Positions 7,880 through 16,879 of a DNA stretch of 43,909 nt are shown here, piece after piece. Origin of the DNA: an uncultured Clostridia bacterium (GTDB lineage: Bacteria; Bacillota; Clostridia; UMGS1883); NCBI GenBank assembly GCA_947630975.1, contig CANRJP010000010.1, positions 1 through 43,909 of the forward strand, written 5' to 3'. The notes beneath the pieces were generated by a model. The model searched no databases. It saw only the letters and a program-made list of their open reading frames with translations, and was not told the DNA's origin. Each line of letters starts with the position of its first letter. Within the stretch, counting starts at the first letter, position 1. A program made the translations under genes and the position numbers.

Positions 7880-9871
7880 TTACTTCGGTATAATCTTGCC
7901 GGAACCCATGCAGTTGGTACACATCTCGCTGCCGGCGCCTCCGCACCTCGGGCAGGGAGAGAGGGTCACACTGTCCCGCAAACCCGAGCCGTGGCAGTAA
8001 TAGCATGTGTGTCGGCCGCTGCCGCCGCATATGGGACAGGTAGCCAGTACGCCCGTGCCGCCGGAACTGCCGCCGCTTGAACTGCCGCTGCCGGAACTGC
8101 TGCCGCCGCTTGATTTGCCGCTGCTTGAACTGCCGCTTGTGTTGCCGCTTGAGCTGCCGCTTTCATTGGAGGCGATTTCGATAATATTGTTGCCGTCGGG
8201 ATCCATAATGTATATTTTAGCTTTGGAATAATCCGACGGTGTATCCCACTGGTGGTCTCTGTAGTAACGAAACGAGCTGAAACCGCTGCAGAAAACAACG
8301 CAGTTGGGGTCGTCGGTAATATAACGGTAAGAAATTTTGTTGGCATTTTTGCCTTCCGATTTTACGAGAATCTCTTCGATGCCGCTTTTTTTGTTTATCC
8401 TCATCAGACTGCCGCGGTCGGCATTTGAGTTAGTTACGTCATAGAACCACTCACTGTTGTTGATACGCGTGTAATTTGTATCGTCACAGTGGCTGTAGTA
8501 TTCGTCTTCATCGATCTCGACGGCCTTATTTGTAACCGGGTCAAACTCAAGATAATATTCTCCGGAACTACTGAAAATAGAATTATTTCCGAGTTCCCTC
8601 ATATAAATATTGTTTCCGCTGCTGAAAATTGAAAAGTCTTTTTCTCCGGTTTCCGGCACCCAGGGCGTGTCGGCGCCATAAGTAGCACCCATAATTCGAT
8701 TATAAACAGTTTCAACCGTAAAATCGTTAAGGTCAATGGCGAACATTAAGTTGCCGTGAACACATTCTTCGTCGGTTTTTAAACATTTGTACCATGCTTC
8801 ATAGGCCGCGGTGATATATAATTTACCGTTTTTAACAGTCGCGCCGTCACAGATGGTGGCCATATCAAAATTAGAAATTTCAGCCATATAATCATGGTCT
8901 CCGTACGGGCACGAAAGCTTTGAATTATACATTTTCAATTTGTTCATATACCGGCTCTCTCCGGTGGCAATGTCAAATTCGTACACGGGGAACTCTATGT
9001 TTTTCTCGTCTTTCGCGTAAAACCTGTTGTCGGCAAGGCCCTCGATTATGTAGATTTTTCCGTTGTAATACAAAAATTTCCTTATCGCCCCGTCGCCGGA
9101 ATACAGGGGCTTTCTGCTTCCGGTGGTGAGGTCAAGCTGGTTGACGCTTTGGTTGTCCTCGTTTAAGTAATATAAGTAATTTCCGGATACCACTATATTG
9201 GAGGGTTCTCCCCCGGTGTTGTAGCTCCTTGTCGTCCCTCCGTCAAAGGCGAATATGGCCGGCCGTTCGGCAAATGAATAATAAATTATGCCGTTATTTA
9301 TAAAAACGGAGGTAACAGCGGAATAGCTCTTATAATCAACAAATATTGGATCACCGTTGCTCTTATGTGACATTATGTCGGAATTGGCGCTACTAAGATA
9401 TACATTTCTTGTGTTTGTCAGCACCTCGTTGGTGAGTATCTCTACCCGGTTCTCGTCCCCGAGCCAGTTGACCGTGGCGTGCAGAATCTCGGCCGCGGCT
9501 CTGGCGGGGACAAAGGTGCGTCCGTCGATTATTTGGGCAGGCACGTCAAGGGTGACCGTGTGCGAGCCCTCGTGGTCTATCACCGTTACGTCGACGCTCC
9601 CTATCCGCATTTCGCCGCTTACGTTGTTCTTTTTGAAGTAGACCGTCTGTGTGGCGTTGTCCCACTCCACCAGCGCGCCCAAAGCCTCGAAGATGGCCCG
9701 CACGGGCACCAGCGTCCGGCCGTTGACGGCCGTGGGCGGTACGTCAAAGGTCACCGGCCGTCCGTCAACGGTGACGGATATTTCCCCCGCGGCCAGAGCC
9801 GCCGCCGGCATAACGGCGCAGAGCATGGCCGCGCAGACCAGCAGGGCCAGCAGTTTGTGTGTGTGTTTCAT
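7880..9871 (-). CDS. Secreted stalk-domain protein with beta-propeller-like body and DnaJ-type zinc finger
   Basis: 663 residues. A signal peptide (HKLLALLVCAAMLCAVMPA, cut near ALAAG) is followed by two copper-amine-oxidase-N-like stalk units (VNGRTLVPVRAIFEALGA and IDGRTFVPARAAAEILHA, residues ~30-150). A long region with YYSF, YYLN and IYI repeats follows (~150-580), resembling DUF5050-like beta-propellers. A Ser/Gly linker of ~30 residues then leads to four CxxCxGxG knuckles at the C-terminus (CPICGGSG, CYYCHGSG, CPRCGGAG, CTNCMGSG), the DnaJ cysteine-rich pattern. Such a zinc finger on an exported protein is unusual. The start is supported by AAGGAGG 9 bp upstream. Expression is probably controlled by the structured leader at 9920-10087. 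Confidence 0.8.
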   Translation of the reverse strand: MKHTHKLLALLVCAAMLCAVMPAAALAAGEISVTVDGRPVTFDVPPTAVNGRTLVPVRAIFEALGALVEWDNATQTVYFKKNNVSGEMRIGSVDVTVIDHEGSHTVTLDVPAQIIDGRTFVPARAAAEILHATVNWLGDENRVEILTNEVLTNTRNVYLSSANSDIMSHKSNGDPIFVDYKSYSAVTSVFINNGIIYYSFAERPAIFAFDGGTTRSYNTGGEPSNIVVSGNYLYYLNEDNQSVNQLDLTTGSRKPLYSGDGAIRKFLYYNGKIYIIEGLADNRFYAKDEKNIEFPVYEFDIATGESRYMNKLKMYNSKLSCPYGDHDYMAEISNFDMATICDGATVKNGKLYITAAYEAWYKCLKTDEECVHGNLMFAIDLNDFTVETVYNRIMGATYGADTPWVPETGEKDFSIFSSGNNIYMRELGNNSIFSSSGEYYLEFDPVTNKAVEIDEDEYYSHCDDTNYTRINNSEWFYDVTNSNADRGSLMRINKKSGIEEILVKSEGKNANKISYRYITDDPNCVVFCSGFSSFRYYRDHQWDTPSDYSKAKIYIMDPDGNNIIEIASNESGSSSGNTSGSSSSGKSSGGSSSGSGSSSGGSSGGTGVLATCPICGGSGRHTCYYCHGSGLRDSVTLSPCPRCGGAGSEMCTNCMGSGKIIPK

Positions 9872-9919
9872 TTTGTTTTCCTCCTTATAAAGTGAAATAT
9901 GGTTTATTACGGCGCAAAT

Positions 9920-9950
9920 AAAAAATGCGCCGCAGAGTTGAAGCGGCGCA
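9920..9950 (-). terminator. Intrinsic terminator inside the leader of the stalk-domain gene
   Basis: On the minus strand TGCGCCGC... pairs with ...GCGGCGCA (plus 9926-9933 and 9943-9950), followed by TTTTTT (plus 9920-9925). It lies between the predicted transcription start and the coding start. This is the arrangement expected of an attenuator or riboswitch expression platform. Confidence 0.7.
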
Positions 9951-9975
9951 AAAAAACGCCTGCTTCGGTCTATTG

Positions 9976-10087
9976 CTGCGACACAACCATTTCATAGTCC
10001 TCAGGGCAAGAAATGCAACCTTAAGCATACGTTTTTTTCAAACGTATACTTGTCCTAAATAAAAAGATATATTCAGTTGTGTCGCAG
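9976..10087 (-). ncRNA. Candidate cis-regulatory leader RNA (riboswitch-like, class not recognised)
   Basis: A perfect 12-bp closing helix joins minus-strand CTGCGACACAAC (plus 10076-10087) to GTTGTGTCGCAG (plus 9976-9987). It encloses two hairpins: AAGTATACGTTT/AAACGTATGCTT (plus 10023-10034 with 10040-10051, one G-T pair) and CATTTC/GAAATG (plus 9988-9993 with 10010-10015), whose loop is TTGCCCTGAGGACTAT. The loop-side CTTGCCCT could also pair with AGGACAAG (plus 10049-10056) with one mismatch, as an alternative or pseudoknot. A promoter places the transcript start at the first helix, and a terminator follows 25 bp later. I compared it from memory with common bacterial riboswitch consensus motifs and found no match. 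Confidence 0.6.
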
Positions 10088-10091
10088 TTTT

Positions 10092-10120
10092 AATATATCA
10101 TATTTGAACAATTTTGTAAA
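10092..10120 (-). promoter_or_regulatory. Promoter of the structured leader and stalk-domain gene
   Basis: On the minus strand TTTACA (plus 10115-10120) and TATATT (plus 10092-10097) have a 17-bp spacer. The predicted start falls at about 10086, exactly at the 5' strand of the leader's closing helix. Confidence 0.65.
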
Positions 10121-10163
10121 GGGGTTTTCTAAAAAAACTGTATATTTTTTTCGGATAAAAGTC

Positions 10164-10194
10164 TTGACAAATTAAGTTAGTTATGCTAAACTAA
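10164..10194 (+). promoter_or_regulatory. feo promoter with DtxR-like operator
   Basis: TTGACA (10164-10169) and TAAACT (10187-10192) are 17 bp apart. An 18-bp inverted repeat TTAGTTATGCTAAACTAA (10177-10194) covers the -10 region. It resembles the DtxR/IdeR box (TTAGGTTAGCCTAACCTAA), which fits iron-dependent repression of the ferrous-iron uptake genes that follow. The regulator itself is not in the window. Confidence 0.65.
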
Positions 10195-10231
10195 TTATTG
10201 TAATTAAAACTAACAAGAGGAGTTGAGAGCC

Positions 10232-10441
10232 ATGCCCTTGTTGATGCTGGATTCGGGAGTGAAAAAACACATTGTCAAAATCAGCGGCAAGGATAAGGTG
10301 CGCCGGTTTTTGGAGAGTCTGGGCTTTGTGGAGGGCGCGGAGGTGAGCGTCGTCTCGGAAATGGCCGGGAACGTCATCGTCAACGTCAAGGAGTCCCGGG
10401 TTGCGCTGGACAGAGATCTGGCAAGATGTATAATCGTATGA
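10232..10441 (+). CDS. feoA: FeoA family protein, first copy
   Basis: 69 residues forming an SH3-like FeoA domain: ...KISGKDKVRRFLESLGFVEGAEVSVVSEMAGNVIVNVKESRVALDRDLARCI. FeoA-type proteins are small cytoplasmic partners of the FeoB ferrous-iron transporter. The start ATG 10232 lies 9 bp after AGAGGAG; an in-frame TTG at 10223 overlaps the Shine-Dalgarno and is less likely. It is the first gene behind the DtxR-like box, and a second feoA follows after 18 bp. Confidence 0.9.
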   Translation: MPLLMLDSGVKKHIVKISGKDKVRRFLESLGFVEGAEVSVVSEMAGNVIVNVKESRVALDRDLARCIIV

Positions 10442-10459
10442 TTTGGAGGAGGTTTTGAT

Positions 10460-10681
10460 ATGAAAACACTTAGAGATGCCGGTATAGGCGAGACCGTCAC
10501 CGTGACGAAGGTGGGCGGCGAGGGCGCCGTCAAGCGCCGCATTATGGATATGGGCATAACCCGTGGCGTTCAGATTTACGTCCGCAAGGTGGCTCCCTTG
10601 GGCGACCCGGTGGAGGTCAACGTTCGCGGCTACGAGCTTTCGCTGCGCAAGGCCGACGCCGAGAATATTCTTGTGGGTTAA
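10460..10681 (+). CDS. feoA: FeoA family protein, second copy
   Basis: 73 residues: MKTLRDAGIGETVTVTKVGG followed by a KRRIMDMGITRGVQIYVRKVAPLGDPVEVNVRGYELSLR segment, the classic FeoA pattern ending in LRK-A--I. It differs clearly from the first copy, so the pair is an old duplication and not a recent one. A Shine-Dalgarno GGAGG lies 9 bp before the ATG. Its last stop base is shared with the left end of an inserted 172-bp MITE, which separates it from feoB. Confidence 0.92.
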   Translation: MKTLRDAGIGETVTVTKVGGEGAVKRRIMDMGITRGVQIYVRKVAPLGDPVEVNVRGYELSLRKADAENILVG

Positions 10682-10852
10682 GGCAATACCGCACAAAGAC
10701 CGCCAATGAGCTTTGCACCCGTCTTGCTTGCATCTTTTCCGACGTTTCTTACGAAAACTCCTTGAAATACGACAGTATTCCGACGTCGTTTTCGTAATTC
10801 CGTCAAAAAATCTGCGGCGCAATACGGGCACAATCTCTGTGCGGTATTGCCT
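10681..10852. mobile_element. 172-bp MITE, copy 1, between feoA and feoB
   Basis: The element is bounded by inverted ends AGGCAATACCGCACA and TGTGCGGTATTGCCT (15 bp perfect, then imperfect). A second copy of identical length lies at 36812-36983. Both are flanked by a 2-bp duplication (TA here, AT there, or TA in each case if the terminal A/T is counted as target), like Tc1/mariner-IS630-type MITEs. An inner pair TTACGAAAAC/GTTTTCGTAA strengthens the hairpin. It contains no gene. Confidence 0.85.
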
Positions 10853-10860
10853 TAATTTTT

Positions 10861-10908
10861 TTGAAAATTAGTTAGTTTAATATAATTAAAATAAATCAAG
10901 CTAACTAA
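10861..10908 (+). promoter_or_regulatory. Possible second DtxR-like half-site pair upstream of feoB
   Basis: TTAGTTAG (10868-10875) and its exact inverse CTAACTAA (10901-10908) lie between the MITE and feoB, with TATAAT at 10881-10886 between them. The half-sites match the motif at the feoA promoter. A separate feoB promoter under the same regulator is possible, but no good -35 is visible at 17 bp. Confidence 0.4.
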
Positions 10909-10950
10909 ATATTACCGCATTACGAAAAATAAATTGAGGAGGATTTTACA

Positions 10951-13613: not shown

Positions 13614-13729
13614 TAAACGTTTGCAGCGATAATAATAGATGAAATAATATGTTGCTTATTTTACCCAACCTTTTTTACTCTTTCTCTGTCTATCTTATGA
13701 AAGCTTTCAAAAACGAAAGGATGATTAGA

Positions 13730-16700
13730 ATGGCATATCCCGATAAGAGCGACGGCACCCTTGTGCTGCTGACCCTGGCCGGGGACGAAGGGGCCTACGG
13801 CGCCCTTGTGGAGCGGCATCAGAGGGGTGTGCTGGCGGCGGCAAGGGCGGCTGTGAACAACCGCCATCTGGCCGAGGACGCCGCACAGGACGCCTTTATC
13901 GCCGCATGGATGAAGCTGAACCTCCTGCGGGAGCCGGAAAAGTTCGGCTCGTGGGTGCGGCGCATAGCCAAAAACTGCGCCCTGAACACGGCTTTACGGT
14001 TCCGGAGCTACATAAGCCTTGAGGACGCTCCGGCCCTGAGGGAAATGTGCGACCCCCACGGCGGCCCGGAGGAAATGCTCATGTCGTCCGAGGAGGCACG
14101 GCTGGTGCGGAGCGGCGTCGACCGCCTGCCCGAGCGTGCCCGTCAGGTGGTGTACCTCCACTATTACGGGGATTTGACCGTGGAGGAGATAGCCGCTCGG
14201 CTGGGAATTTCCGAGGGAACGGTCAAGTGGCAGCTCCACGACGGAAGAAAGAGAATAAGGAAGGAGTTAAGCGCAATGGACGAAAACATAAACGATACAT
14301 TGGTAAGAAAGGTAATGAAAAAGGTAAACGAGTTAAAGCTGTGGAAGCTGAAAAACGACAAGACCGGCTTTGAAAAGGAATATAAGGACGTGATGGCCGA
14401 CATCGAGGCCATGCCCGAGTGCGGCAAAAAGTACCACGCTTTGGCCGACGTGCTCATGCGGGGCTACTGGTGGCTGCCCGGGGCGGAAAACGACGCCCTG
14501 TTCGAGCGGATAAGAGAAGCCGCCGAGCTGGGCAAAAACGACGAGGTAATGGCCTTTATCGCCAGTCGGGAGGATCGCCGCCGCTGGGATAAGGACAGGA
14601 TAAAATTCATCAGGGAGGTTCAAATACCGAGGCTGGAAAAGGGCGGCTTCACAGGCGCCCTCGGGCGGGAATGGCTCCAACTGGCCTGGGATCTGGCCAA
14701 CGCCGGCGAAGCCTTGGAGGCGGAGGCCGCCGTGGATACGGCCCTGAATATCCTGCCCGTCGGCGACTGCAATTACGCCTGCGCTATGGCGTCAAGGGCA
14801 GTGATACCCACCGTCGTCGACCGGAAGTTTCAAGACGACAAAATTCATCGGAGAGCGACGGCTTTCGGGGCGGAAATCAGGCTCGACGGCGGCGCCCTCC
14901 GGTGCTGGGATTACAGCCATCGCTTTGCCGGATGGATGCGTTCGGGCGACGACCTTGCCGAGACCCTCATATTGACCGCCGCCCTCTGCGACAGGTATCT
15001 CACCGTTCCCGGCCTAAAGGTTGGGGAGGCCTACACGGGAACCGACGGGTCGTCCCTGACCTTTGAGAGCGATAACGCCACGGTCGGGACTCCCTGCGGC
15101 GTCTTTGACGGCTGTCAGGTCTGGGTCACGGTGAAAGGCACCGAGCGCGTCAGGGCCTGCTATAAGGAGGGAGTGGGCCTCGTCCGGCTGGAGCACCGCC
15201 TTGACGGCGTCACCGAGGCGCGGAGCCTTAAGTCCTACAAGGTGCGAGGCGAGGGCCTGCTGCCCATGAACCGGGGCAACCGATGGGAGTACGTGTCCGG
15301 CTTCGATCCCGAGTGCGTCAGCTATGACACGGAGATGGAGGTAATATATTCCGACGGCGAAAAAGCGCTTTTCACTCAGGTCAGCCATATCCGCCGCACG
15401 GGTTATGACGAAAATTCCTGGACGGAAATGATGATGCAGATACGCAACGAATATTATCACTTTGAAAACGGCGACGAGCATATATGTGACGTGAGCCGTG
15501 CCGTGGAGCGGGCGGAGCTGCTGGCAAAAACGCCTCTCGAAAGGGCCCACACCCGTCTCGCGGCATCCACTGCCAGACGGATAATGGCTACCGACCCGGA
15601 CTTCAACCCCGGTTGCGCCTCCGTCGGCCACTGGAACTTTTTCCAGCGCAATACGGCCGTGGAGCGGGACGGGAAGGTGATTTTGGAGAACAGCCACCGC
15701 TGGAGCTTTGAGTGGAAGCTGGGCGCCAAACTGGGCGCCGCCGGTGAGCCCATCCTCTGCAACCACATTTACGGCATACTTTTCGACGCCTGCGGCTGTC
15801 TTTGGGCCGAGGGCTGGCAGTCCGGGGTCGAGCTCACCGAAAACCGCTTTTGCTACGGCGAGCCAACTACCACACACATGAAGTTTGAGGACGCCGGAAC
15901 GGTGTCCGTCCTGGCCGGTGAGTTCCGCGGCTGTCTGCGGCTCAGTCTGGACATCAAAGGCATGGGCGAGTACACCCAGTATCGGGCCGGGAAGAAGGAA
16001 TACTATTTCGCCCCCGGCGTCGGCATTGTGAAAACCGTCAACCATAACCGGAAGGACGGCAGCGCCTCGTCCTTTGAGCTGGCGTCCTACGAGGGCGGGG
16101 GAGAGGGTTACATGCCCTTTGAGGACGGGCTTGTCCGCCGCTATGAGGCGGTGGGCCTCACCGACGGCTTCACCGCCGCCGCCGAGTACGCCTATGTCAG
16201 GGACGGGGACGGGAACATCGTCATTTTTGAGGAGAATGTCGGCGTCCGCACGGCGCCCCGGGGCGTGACCCGCTACGACTCGATAGAGGCCGAGCAGAGG
16301 GAACGGGCCCTGAACGATGAGGAAAAATACAAGGAAGGCGCGGCTTTGGGCGCTTATAACAACTTTATGGTGCTGTACCACGAGCTCCGCCGCCTGCCCT
16401 GCGGTGAAAACACCCTCCGTAACGCCGCATGGCAGAAGTACCACCTCCGCCGCTGCGAGGCGGCGGGAGAGGACGGCCAAGTCCCGCCCGCCCTTCTGGG
16501 CTTCTGCACAAAAATGGCCCTGTGGGCGGCCTCCGATCTGGCCGGCGGCGGAGAAAAGGAGGAGAGCTACGCGTATATTGAGTGCGCCATCGAATATGAG
16601 AAGCGGTGGACGGCCTTTCCAAAAGGCGCAAAGCTGTCTGTGGGCGATCCGCTGGTTTTCGGCGGCATAAAGTATGTTAAGGGCGAAGGCGTTATCGAGC

Positions 16701-16879
16701 TTCCCGACGGCAGCCGTAAGCAGCTTGACGACGACTGGTTCGTCGATCGGAACTGGAATATGGAAGCTCTCGCCGTGTATTACGCCCTCACCGCGCCACG
16801 GGGCTGGGAGAGGTTCGACCTTATGCGGGACGAGGAGCGGTATAAGGCTCTTGTGGAACGGGCGAAAAATCTGATATGA
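13730..16879 (+). CDS. ECF-type sigma factor fused to a large C-terminal domain
   Basis: 1049 residues from ATG 13730 (Shine-Dalgarno GAAAGG 9 bp upstream). Residues ~20-90 are sigma region 2 (LVERHQRGVLAAARAAV; EDAAQDAFIAAWMKL; FGSWVRRIAKNCALN) and ~125-180 are region 4 (RLPERARQVVYLHYYGDLTVEE; ARLGISEGTVKWQLHDGRKR). The remaining ~867 residues have no membrane helix and no domain I recognise. They contain two related blocks, near residues 444-520 (FESDNATVGTPCGVFDGCQ ... GVGLVRLEH) and 717-800 (MKFEDAGTVSVLAGEFRGC ... GVGIVKTVN). At the junction an internal AAGGAG (14261-14266) stands 9 bp before an in-frame ATG (14276). This suggests that two former genes were joined and that a separate C-terminal product may still be made. 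A candidate promoter TTGCAG/TAATAT lies at 13621-13650. Confidence 0.8.
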   Translation: MAYPDKSDGTLVLLTLAGDEGAYGALVERHQRGVLAAARAAVNNRHLAEDAAQDAFIAAWMKLNLLREPEKFGSWVRRIAKNCALNTALRFRSYISLEDAPALREMCDPHGGPEEMLMSSEEARLVRSGVDRLPERARQVVYLHYYGDLTVEEIAARLGISEGTVKWQLHDGRKRIRKELSAMDENINDTLVRKVMKKVNELKLWKLKNDKTGFEKEYKDVMADIEAMPECGKKYHALADVLMRGYWWLPGAENDALFERIREAAELGKNDEVMAFIASREDRRRWDKDRIKFIREVQIPRLEKGGFTGALGREWLQLAWDLANAGEALEAEAAVDTALNILPVGDCNYACAMASRAVIPTVVDRKFQDDKIHRRATAFGAEIRLDGGALRCWDYSHRFAGWMRSGDDLAETLILTAALCDRYLTVPGLKVGEAYTGTDGSSLTFESDNATVGTPCGVFDGCQVWVTVKGTERVRACYKEGVGLVRLEHRLDGVTEARSLKSYKVRGEGLLPMNRGNRWEYVSGFDPECVSYDTEMEVIYSDGEKALFTQVSHIRRTGYDENSWTEMMMQIRNEYYHFENGDEHICDVSRAVERAELLAKTPLERAHTRLAASTARRIMATDPDFNPGCASVGHWNFFQRNTAVERDGKVILENSHRWSFEWKLGAKLGAAGEPILCNHIYGILFDACGCLWAEGWQSGVELTENRFCYGEPTTTHMKFEDAGTVSVLAGEFRGCLRLSLDIKGMGEYTQYRAGKKEYYFAPGVGIVKTVNHNRKDGSASSFELASYEGGGEGYMPFEDGLVRRYEAVGLTDGFTAAAEYAYVRDGDGNIVIFEENVGVRTAPRGVTRYDSIEAEQRERALNDEEKYKEGAALGAYNNFMVLYHELRRLPCGENTLRNAAWQKYHLRRCEAAGEDGQVPPALLGFCTKMALWAASDLAGGGEKEESYAYIECAIEYEKRWTAFPKGAKLSVGDPLVFGGIKYVKGEGVIELPDGSRKQLDDDWFVDRNWNMEALAVYYALTAPRGWERFDLMRDEERYKALVERAKNLI

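Follow-up and report, generated by a model that had tools for sequence, protein, structure and literature searches.

What decides whether the gene of a secreted 663-aa protein is transcribed in an uncultured Clostridia bacterium? The question is raised by the leader at positions 10120 to 9872 (minus strand) of the window, by which the whole 43,909-nucleotide stretch of DNA analyzed here is meant. The controlled gene (7880 to 9871, minus strand) encodes a signal peptide, a Cu_amine_oxidN1 (stalk) domain and C-terminal DnaJ-like zinc knuckles. In a preliminary description, the region upstream of it was presented as an unassigned riboswitch-like transcriptional leader, and a metal signal was guessed from the CxxCxGxG knuckles of the protein. 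Judging from the sequence comparisons reported below, the window probably holds one representative of a Clostridia RNA, unclassified and riboswitch-like, that would decide by transcription attenuation whether surface-protein genes are transcribed. The earlier interpretation is partly supported, being right in kind, the metal guess aside.

Architecture of the leader

On the minus strand, a promoter, P1, P3 and P4, a terminator, a Shine-Dalgarno sequence and an ATG follow one another in this order. The sigma-70-type promoter (10092 to 10120) harbors a -35 box, TTTACA (10120-10115), and a -10 box, TATATT (10097-10092), 17 nt apart. P1, already described as a perfect 12-bp closing helix, pairs its 5' strand (10087-10076) with its 3' strand (9987-9976). 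The transcript start does stand in the order given previously, but its position has been corrected to a predicted 10085-10088 or so, at the first bases of the P1 5' strand. The two enclosed hairpins are P3 (10025 to 10049; 10049-10040 with 10034-10025), which has a conserved A-run (10038-10032) in its loop and 3' strand, and P4 (9988 to 10015), a hairpin or pseudoknot in which CAUUUC (10015-10010) pairs with GAAAUG (9993-9988) and which abuts P1. The loop-to-junction pairing noticed earlier corresponds to P2, a long and variable helix across the family, whose 5' strand UUAGGACAAG (10058-10049) can pair with the 3' strand CUUGCCCUGA (10010-10001) inside the P4 loop with one A-C mismatch. The intrinsic terminator (9920 to 9949, -15.7 kcal/mol) has a stem formed by 9949-9943 and 9933-9927 and a U-tract at 9925-9920; with its 9-nt loop, it was passed over by a simple terminator scan limited to loops of 3-8 nt. 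A Shine-Dalgarno sequence, AAGGAGG (9880 to 9886), precedes the ATG at 9871.

All the features named before are confirmed. Two further pairings had been overlooked, and both are conserved in homologues. In the first one, LR, the segment AAAAAAACGUAUGCUUAAGG (10019 to 10038), made of the A-run, the P3 3' strand and the junction, pairs with GACCGAAGCAGGCGUUUUUUU (9950 to 9970), the alternative partner for the P3 3' strand, in a duplex of -19.8 kcal/mol that excludes both P3 and the antiterminator. The second is the antiterminator hairpin (9940 to 9966, -16.0 kcal/mol), where GAAGCaGGCG (9966-9957) pairs with GCGCCGCUUC (9949-9940). The 117-nt aptamer part folds at -41.6 kcal/mol vs -21.1 +/- 3.2 kcal/mol when shuffled (z = -6.3; 0 of 200 shuffles as good). 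Past the U-tract, CGGCGCA...UGCGCCG (9932-9905, minus strand) could refold, joining the terminator 3' arm to downstream sequence, as is also possible at locus L013.

Neighboring features of the window

A divergent feoA-feoA-feoB iron operon is found at 10160-10950. Two stretches at this operon resemble DtxR-type operators, namely the near-palindromic TTAGTTATGCTAAACTAA (about 10176-10194) and TTAGTTAG...CTAACTAA (10870-10908). Between feoA and feoB, a segment of about 180 bp (10680-10860) with the inverted ends GGCAATACCGCACA and TGTGCGGTATTGCC resembles a small non-autonomous mobile element. At 13649-16879, an ECF sigma factor (regions 2 and 4) is extended at its C-terminus by a fused part of some 850 aa, for which a weak DUF3108-like match is the only one.

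Extent and distribution of the family

Homologous sequences indicate that the leader belongs to a widespread family of RNAs and is no single oddity. A DNA search revealed a 77% identical paralogue on contig 37 of the same genome and four more copies in the genus. From these five and the window copy, a first covariance model (R1, six sequences) was built, and a broader one (R2) from 100 sequences. The genome itself contains 10 matches to R1 at E up to 0.1 and 15 to R2, amounting to about 15 or more copies. R1 matches occur in 16 of 21 genomes of the family and 20 of 28 of the order. At E 1e-5, 61 of 391 Clostridia genomes matched in the class sample; the phylum sample gave 2 of 398, both Clostridia, and a mixed-phyla panel 1 of 45, a rumen Ruminococcus MAG. 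Among the carriers are an Oscillospiraceae MAG, Ruminococcus sp. and uncultured Clostridia of the 'Lapin' series, and several of the carrier Clostridia come from animal guts. Altogether, 140 copies were annotated, 122 of which are non-redundant.

Some copies depart from the simple arrangement. Complete cassettes, with promoter, element and terminator present twice, can be found in tandem before one gene at three loci (L180, G008:C42, 14968 and 15181; L181, G008:C35; L182, G000:C115). Two larger variants of the same genome (L003 and L004, on contigs 79 and 33) were recognized by their terminator side; between P1 and P3 they carry additional hairpins amounting to about 100 nt, with P1, LR and terminator unchanged, and they were missed by both R1 and R2. 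Phage and plasmid searches gave no match to the element. Matches from the first pattern scans of viral sequences and genomes were nearly all due to chance, with clear scores in L043, L057 and L058 only, and an IMG/VR pattern match (L286) was dropped as a viral copy, having no match to R2. An element copy at one locus is followed, after about 850 nt, by an RT-14 RNA (L217:2485-2661; Rfam RF02921).

Relation to described RNA families

No family of Rfam 15 matches the window at the gathering cut-off. At E up to 10, weak partial matches were obtained on the terminator/Shine-Dalgarno stretch only; caiA, ncS54 and freshwater-2, sub-threshold and confined to that stretch, were dropped as identities. 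The element also went unmatched at 38 homologue loci searched with relaxed thresholds, where tRNAs and RT-14 were the only hits, elsewhere on the loci. The label "unassigned" given in the preliminary description is therefore retained for both the window and these loci.

A literature search found no paper describing this RNA by gene context, the closest being the SLH motif (PMC6429828). The SLH motif is described there as a candidate riboswitch of the orphan type that lies before genes of S-layer-homology proteins, with 80 examples reported in Synergistaceae, Clostridia and Negativicutes, about 60% of which precede SLH-domain proteins (Stav et al., 2019; PMC6429828). That the present family belongs to this motif is considered rather improbable. 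Both are candidate riboswitches located before cell-surface protein genes, with Clostridia among their hosts, so that context and, in part, taxa agree with the published description. However, the SLH domain (PF00395) was detected in 3 of 104 downstream proteins here vs the roughly 60% given there, the sole Negativicutes genome of the panel (Pelosinus) contains no copy, and the non-Clostridia genomes of the phylum sample have none either, whereas the motif is also reported, with only 80 examples, from Synergistaceae and Negativicutes. The best reading is an orphan riboswitch-like RNA family absent from Rfam, which gene share and taxonomic range would probably set apart from the SLH motif.

Comparative support for the helices

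The same cassette of promoter, P1, P2, P3, P4, LR, antiterminator and U-tailed terminator recurs in the 122 non-redundant copies. Both promoter boxes agree in at least 4 of 6 positions in 93 of 140 homologues vs 7% of random windows, and in 102 of 140 copies the spacing from the end of the -10 box to P1 is exactly 4 nt, which implies that the transcript should begin within the first bases of P1.

Among 100 homologues, 96.9% of the P1 cells are paired and double changes are seen in 11 of 12 pairs, with 174 double-changed cells vs 34.7 +/- 4.7 in shuffles, a count reached by 0 of 500; position 5, for instance, varies as GC, CG, AU and UA. U-G pairs occur at position 9 in 38% of the copies (38 of 100) and at position 1 in 43%. 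P2, of 10 to 24 bp (mean 16.5 bp), differs in almost every copy, and its strands pair at -21.2 kcal/mol with their own partners vs -7.9 kcal/mol when swapped, the own partner being the best of all in 92 of 117 cases. P3 directly adjoins P2. P4 is short and joins the end of the post-P3 junction to the nucleotides immediately preceding the P1 3' strand; its partners are specific to each copy (for example, TCATAC/GTATGA, TTTTCG/CGAAAA and TGTTTCA/TGAAACA), and the score is 9.7 for own vs 8.0 for swapped and shuffled partners, which suggests a real pairing with modest support, the weakest among the helices.

On the expression side, LR reaches -17.5 kcal/mol with its own tail in the 122 non-redundant copies vs -12.7 kcal/mol with foreign tails and -7.6 kcal/mol with shuffled ones. 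Column-wise, 96% of its cells are paired in the A-U part and 76% elsewhere, with 42 double-changed cells vs 19.8; since the number of double-changed pairs is equaled by 89 of 500 shuffles, this column-wise signal is partly plain sequence conservation. For the antiterminator, the values in non-redundant copies are -11.9 kcal/mol (own) vs -8.9 kcal/mol (swapped). Of 137 homologues, 134 have a terminator hairpin at least as stable as -8 kcal/mol, and the terminator averages -15.4 kcal/mol. Compensatory changes, which the preliminary description expected homologous leaders of a riboswitch to display, are present. Two hallmarks of riboswitches are thus found: a conserved structured 5'-leader domain with covariation, and an expression platform with mutually exclusive LR, antiterminator and terminator pairings in about 120 non-redundant copies.

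Inverted repeats between a promoter and a gene, together with surface proteins downstream, also recall an invertible DNA switch (phase variation), in which the 12-bp repeats would recombine and inversion would swap terminator states. This reading is the least credible of those considered and was rejected on account of the G-U pairs in P1 and the constant orientation. U-G at position 9 spoils a DNA repeat while keeping the RNA pair, and every copy has the same orientation, including three (C79, C33 and C145) found by the terminator side alone. Moreover, the terminator lies outside the repeats, and P2, LR and antiterminator covary.

Other features are less easily reconciled with a riboswitch. 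Strictly conserved unpaired bases are few (mainly the UNAAUA junction and the CA, both after P1); many aptamers have more, which counts against the riboswitch reading. P1 positions 2-4, 6, 7 and 10 are nearly invariant though paired, and a bound protein could equally explain this. Accommodating both observations, a protein-controlled attenuator of the LicT, ANTAR or LoaP type, where an RNA-binding protein would recognize the conserved P1 bases or P3 and favor antiterminator or terminator, is the main rival as regards what is sensed, although we regard it as unlikely. LicT (RAT) and ANTAR targets are far smaller than the structure of the element, and no conserved regulator gene was noticed beside the copies in an unsystematic look. 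LoaP-dependent antitermination was rejected, as none of 28 genomes of the order reaches the curated NF033641 cut-off.

A predicted attenuation switch

The attenuation reading assigns each of these pairings a role. Comparison of the copies shows a domain of P2, P3 and P4 closed by P1, where the RNA should begin. The P3 3' strand has two possible partners, the P3 5' strand or the segment before the terminator (LR), and this pre-terminator segment can in turn form either LR with the P3 strand or the antiterminator with the 5' arm of the terminator. P3 and the antiterminator are compatible and would give read-through (ON), while LR and the terminator are compatible and would give termination (OFF). 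With P3, LR, antiterminator and terminator as alternatives, the leader has the parts of a complete attenuation switch.

As for the way in which one state would give place to the other, we infer that the single-stranded junction after P3 (GCUC-type) may serve as a toehold for the newly made tail (GAGC-type), which, having landed there, would displace P3 and turn the gene OFF. A signal that stabilizes the folded domain (probably at its P2/P4 pseudoknot, which neighbors the toehold) would block strand exchange, whereupon the antiterminator could form and the gene be ON. Both the toehold exchange and this polarity, with the folded domain as ON, are deduced from the pairings. Considering that P2 averages 16.5 bp and that hardly any linker separates the P4 strands from P2 and P1, the geometry suggests that full P2 and full P4 should exclude each other; the domain itself is therefore predicted to be two-state.

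Genes downstream of the element

Downstream of the copies, 108 distinct genes were called. Of the 69 with 150 codons or more, 60 have a signal-peptide-like N-terminus, as called by a simple hydrophobicity rule and not by SignalP; for background ORFs from these loci, the figure is 45 of 185 (odds ratio 20.7, p = 6e-20). In the genome of the window, a secreted protein follows 12 of 15 copies. A Pfam scan of the first 420 aa of 104 downstream proteins gave LRR_5 (26), Cu_amine_oxidN1 (9), SLH (3), M23 (2) and CHAP (2). With LRR, SLH, RCC1, amidase, peptidase and other secreted proteins behind the copies, secretion or surface location is the common denominator. The metal guess thus finds no support, because the zinc knuckles belong to one gene and not to the whole regulon; the metal transport and homeostasis regulon expected of a metal-sensing riboswitch was not found among the downstream genes. 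The functional breadth of the regulon counts against the attenuation reading.

A second group consists of short cytoplasmic proteins, namely six AbrB-like regulators, a Cys-rich family of 61-75 aa (CCCDEC) and another whose members have about 78 aa. The AbrB/SpoVT-like regulators, which have a C-terminal zinc-ribbon-like part (L238, L255, L265, L268, L270 and L271), possibly form a wider regulatory layer. The two small families are repeatedly encountered downstream of the element, at loci L212, L219, L222, L235, L249 and L251, and L200, L201, L269 and L280. Tested members (L219 and L200) had no Pfam match, and no Cys-rich (CCCDEC) protein was found in GenBank phages.

Nature of the signal

Between the two kinds of signal, a small molecule is favored, most likely one common to the carrier bacteria. 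With a regulon resembling those of c-di-GMP and with tandem copies, a c-di-GMP sensor like the c-di-GMP-I and -II riboswitches of surface and adhesion genes comes to mind, but this is highly improbable because five element-bearing genomes have no GGDEF domain at all: G008 (13 copies, 96% complete) and G010, G012, G002 and G003 (1-4 copies each, 89-93% complete). Nor do the c-di-GMP riboswitch families in Rfam match.

Extending the attenuation reading, it can be proposed, if only tentatively, that the family is a candidate new riboswitch class, in which an as yet unrecognized intracellular signal other than c-di-GMP would switch on a set of surface adhesins and wall enzymes from 10-15 or more copies per genome, by means of a two-state P2/P4 domain and toehold strand exchange with the terminator segment.

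Significance and comparison with known systems

Orphan regulatory RNAs this abundant per genome and associated with one coherent set of surface or secreted genes are uncommon. A family that Rfam lacks is described by the alignments and covariance model, and thanks to the conserved LR/antiterminator/terminator cassette, the switch can be tested directly and used as a reporter. Identification of the signal would open a way to understanding how carrier Clostridia control surface display.

With regard to known systems, the c-di-GMP-I and -II riboswitches are likewise transcription attenuators of surface and adhesion genes in Clostridia, sometimes in tandem; they differ from the present family in sequence and structure, as judged from Rfam, and several element-bearing genomes here are devoid of GGDEF proteins. 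The invertible cwpV leader of Clostridioides difficile also has a terminator before a surface-protein gene and inverted repeats between promoter and gene, whereas the repeats here form an RNA helix that includes G-U pairs, and only one orientation is observed. The ZTP, fluoride and preQ1 transcriptional riboswitches share with the element a pseudoknotted domain followed by a competing antiterminator/terminator pairing. However, none of them is matched in Rfam by the present family, their helices and conserved bases are different, and they serve metabolic and resistance genes rather than surface proteins.
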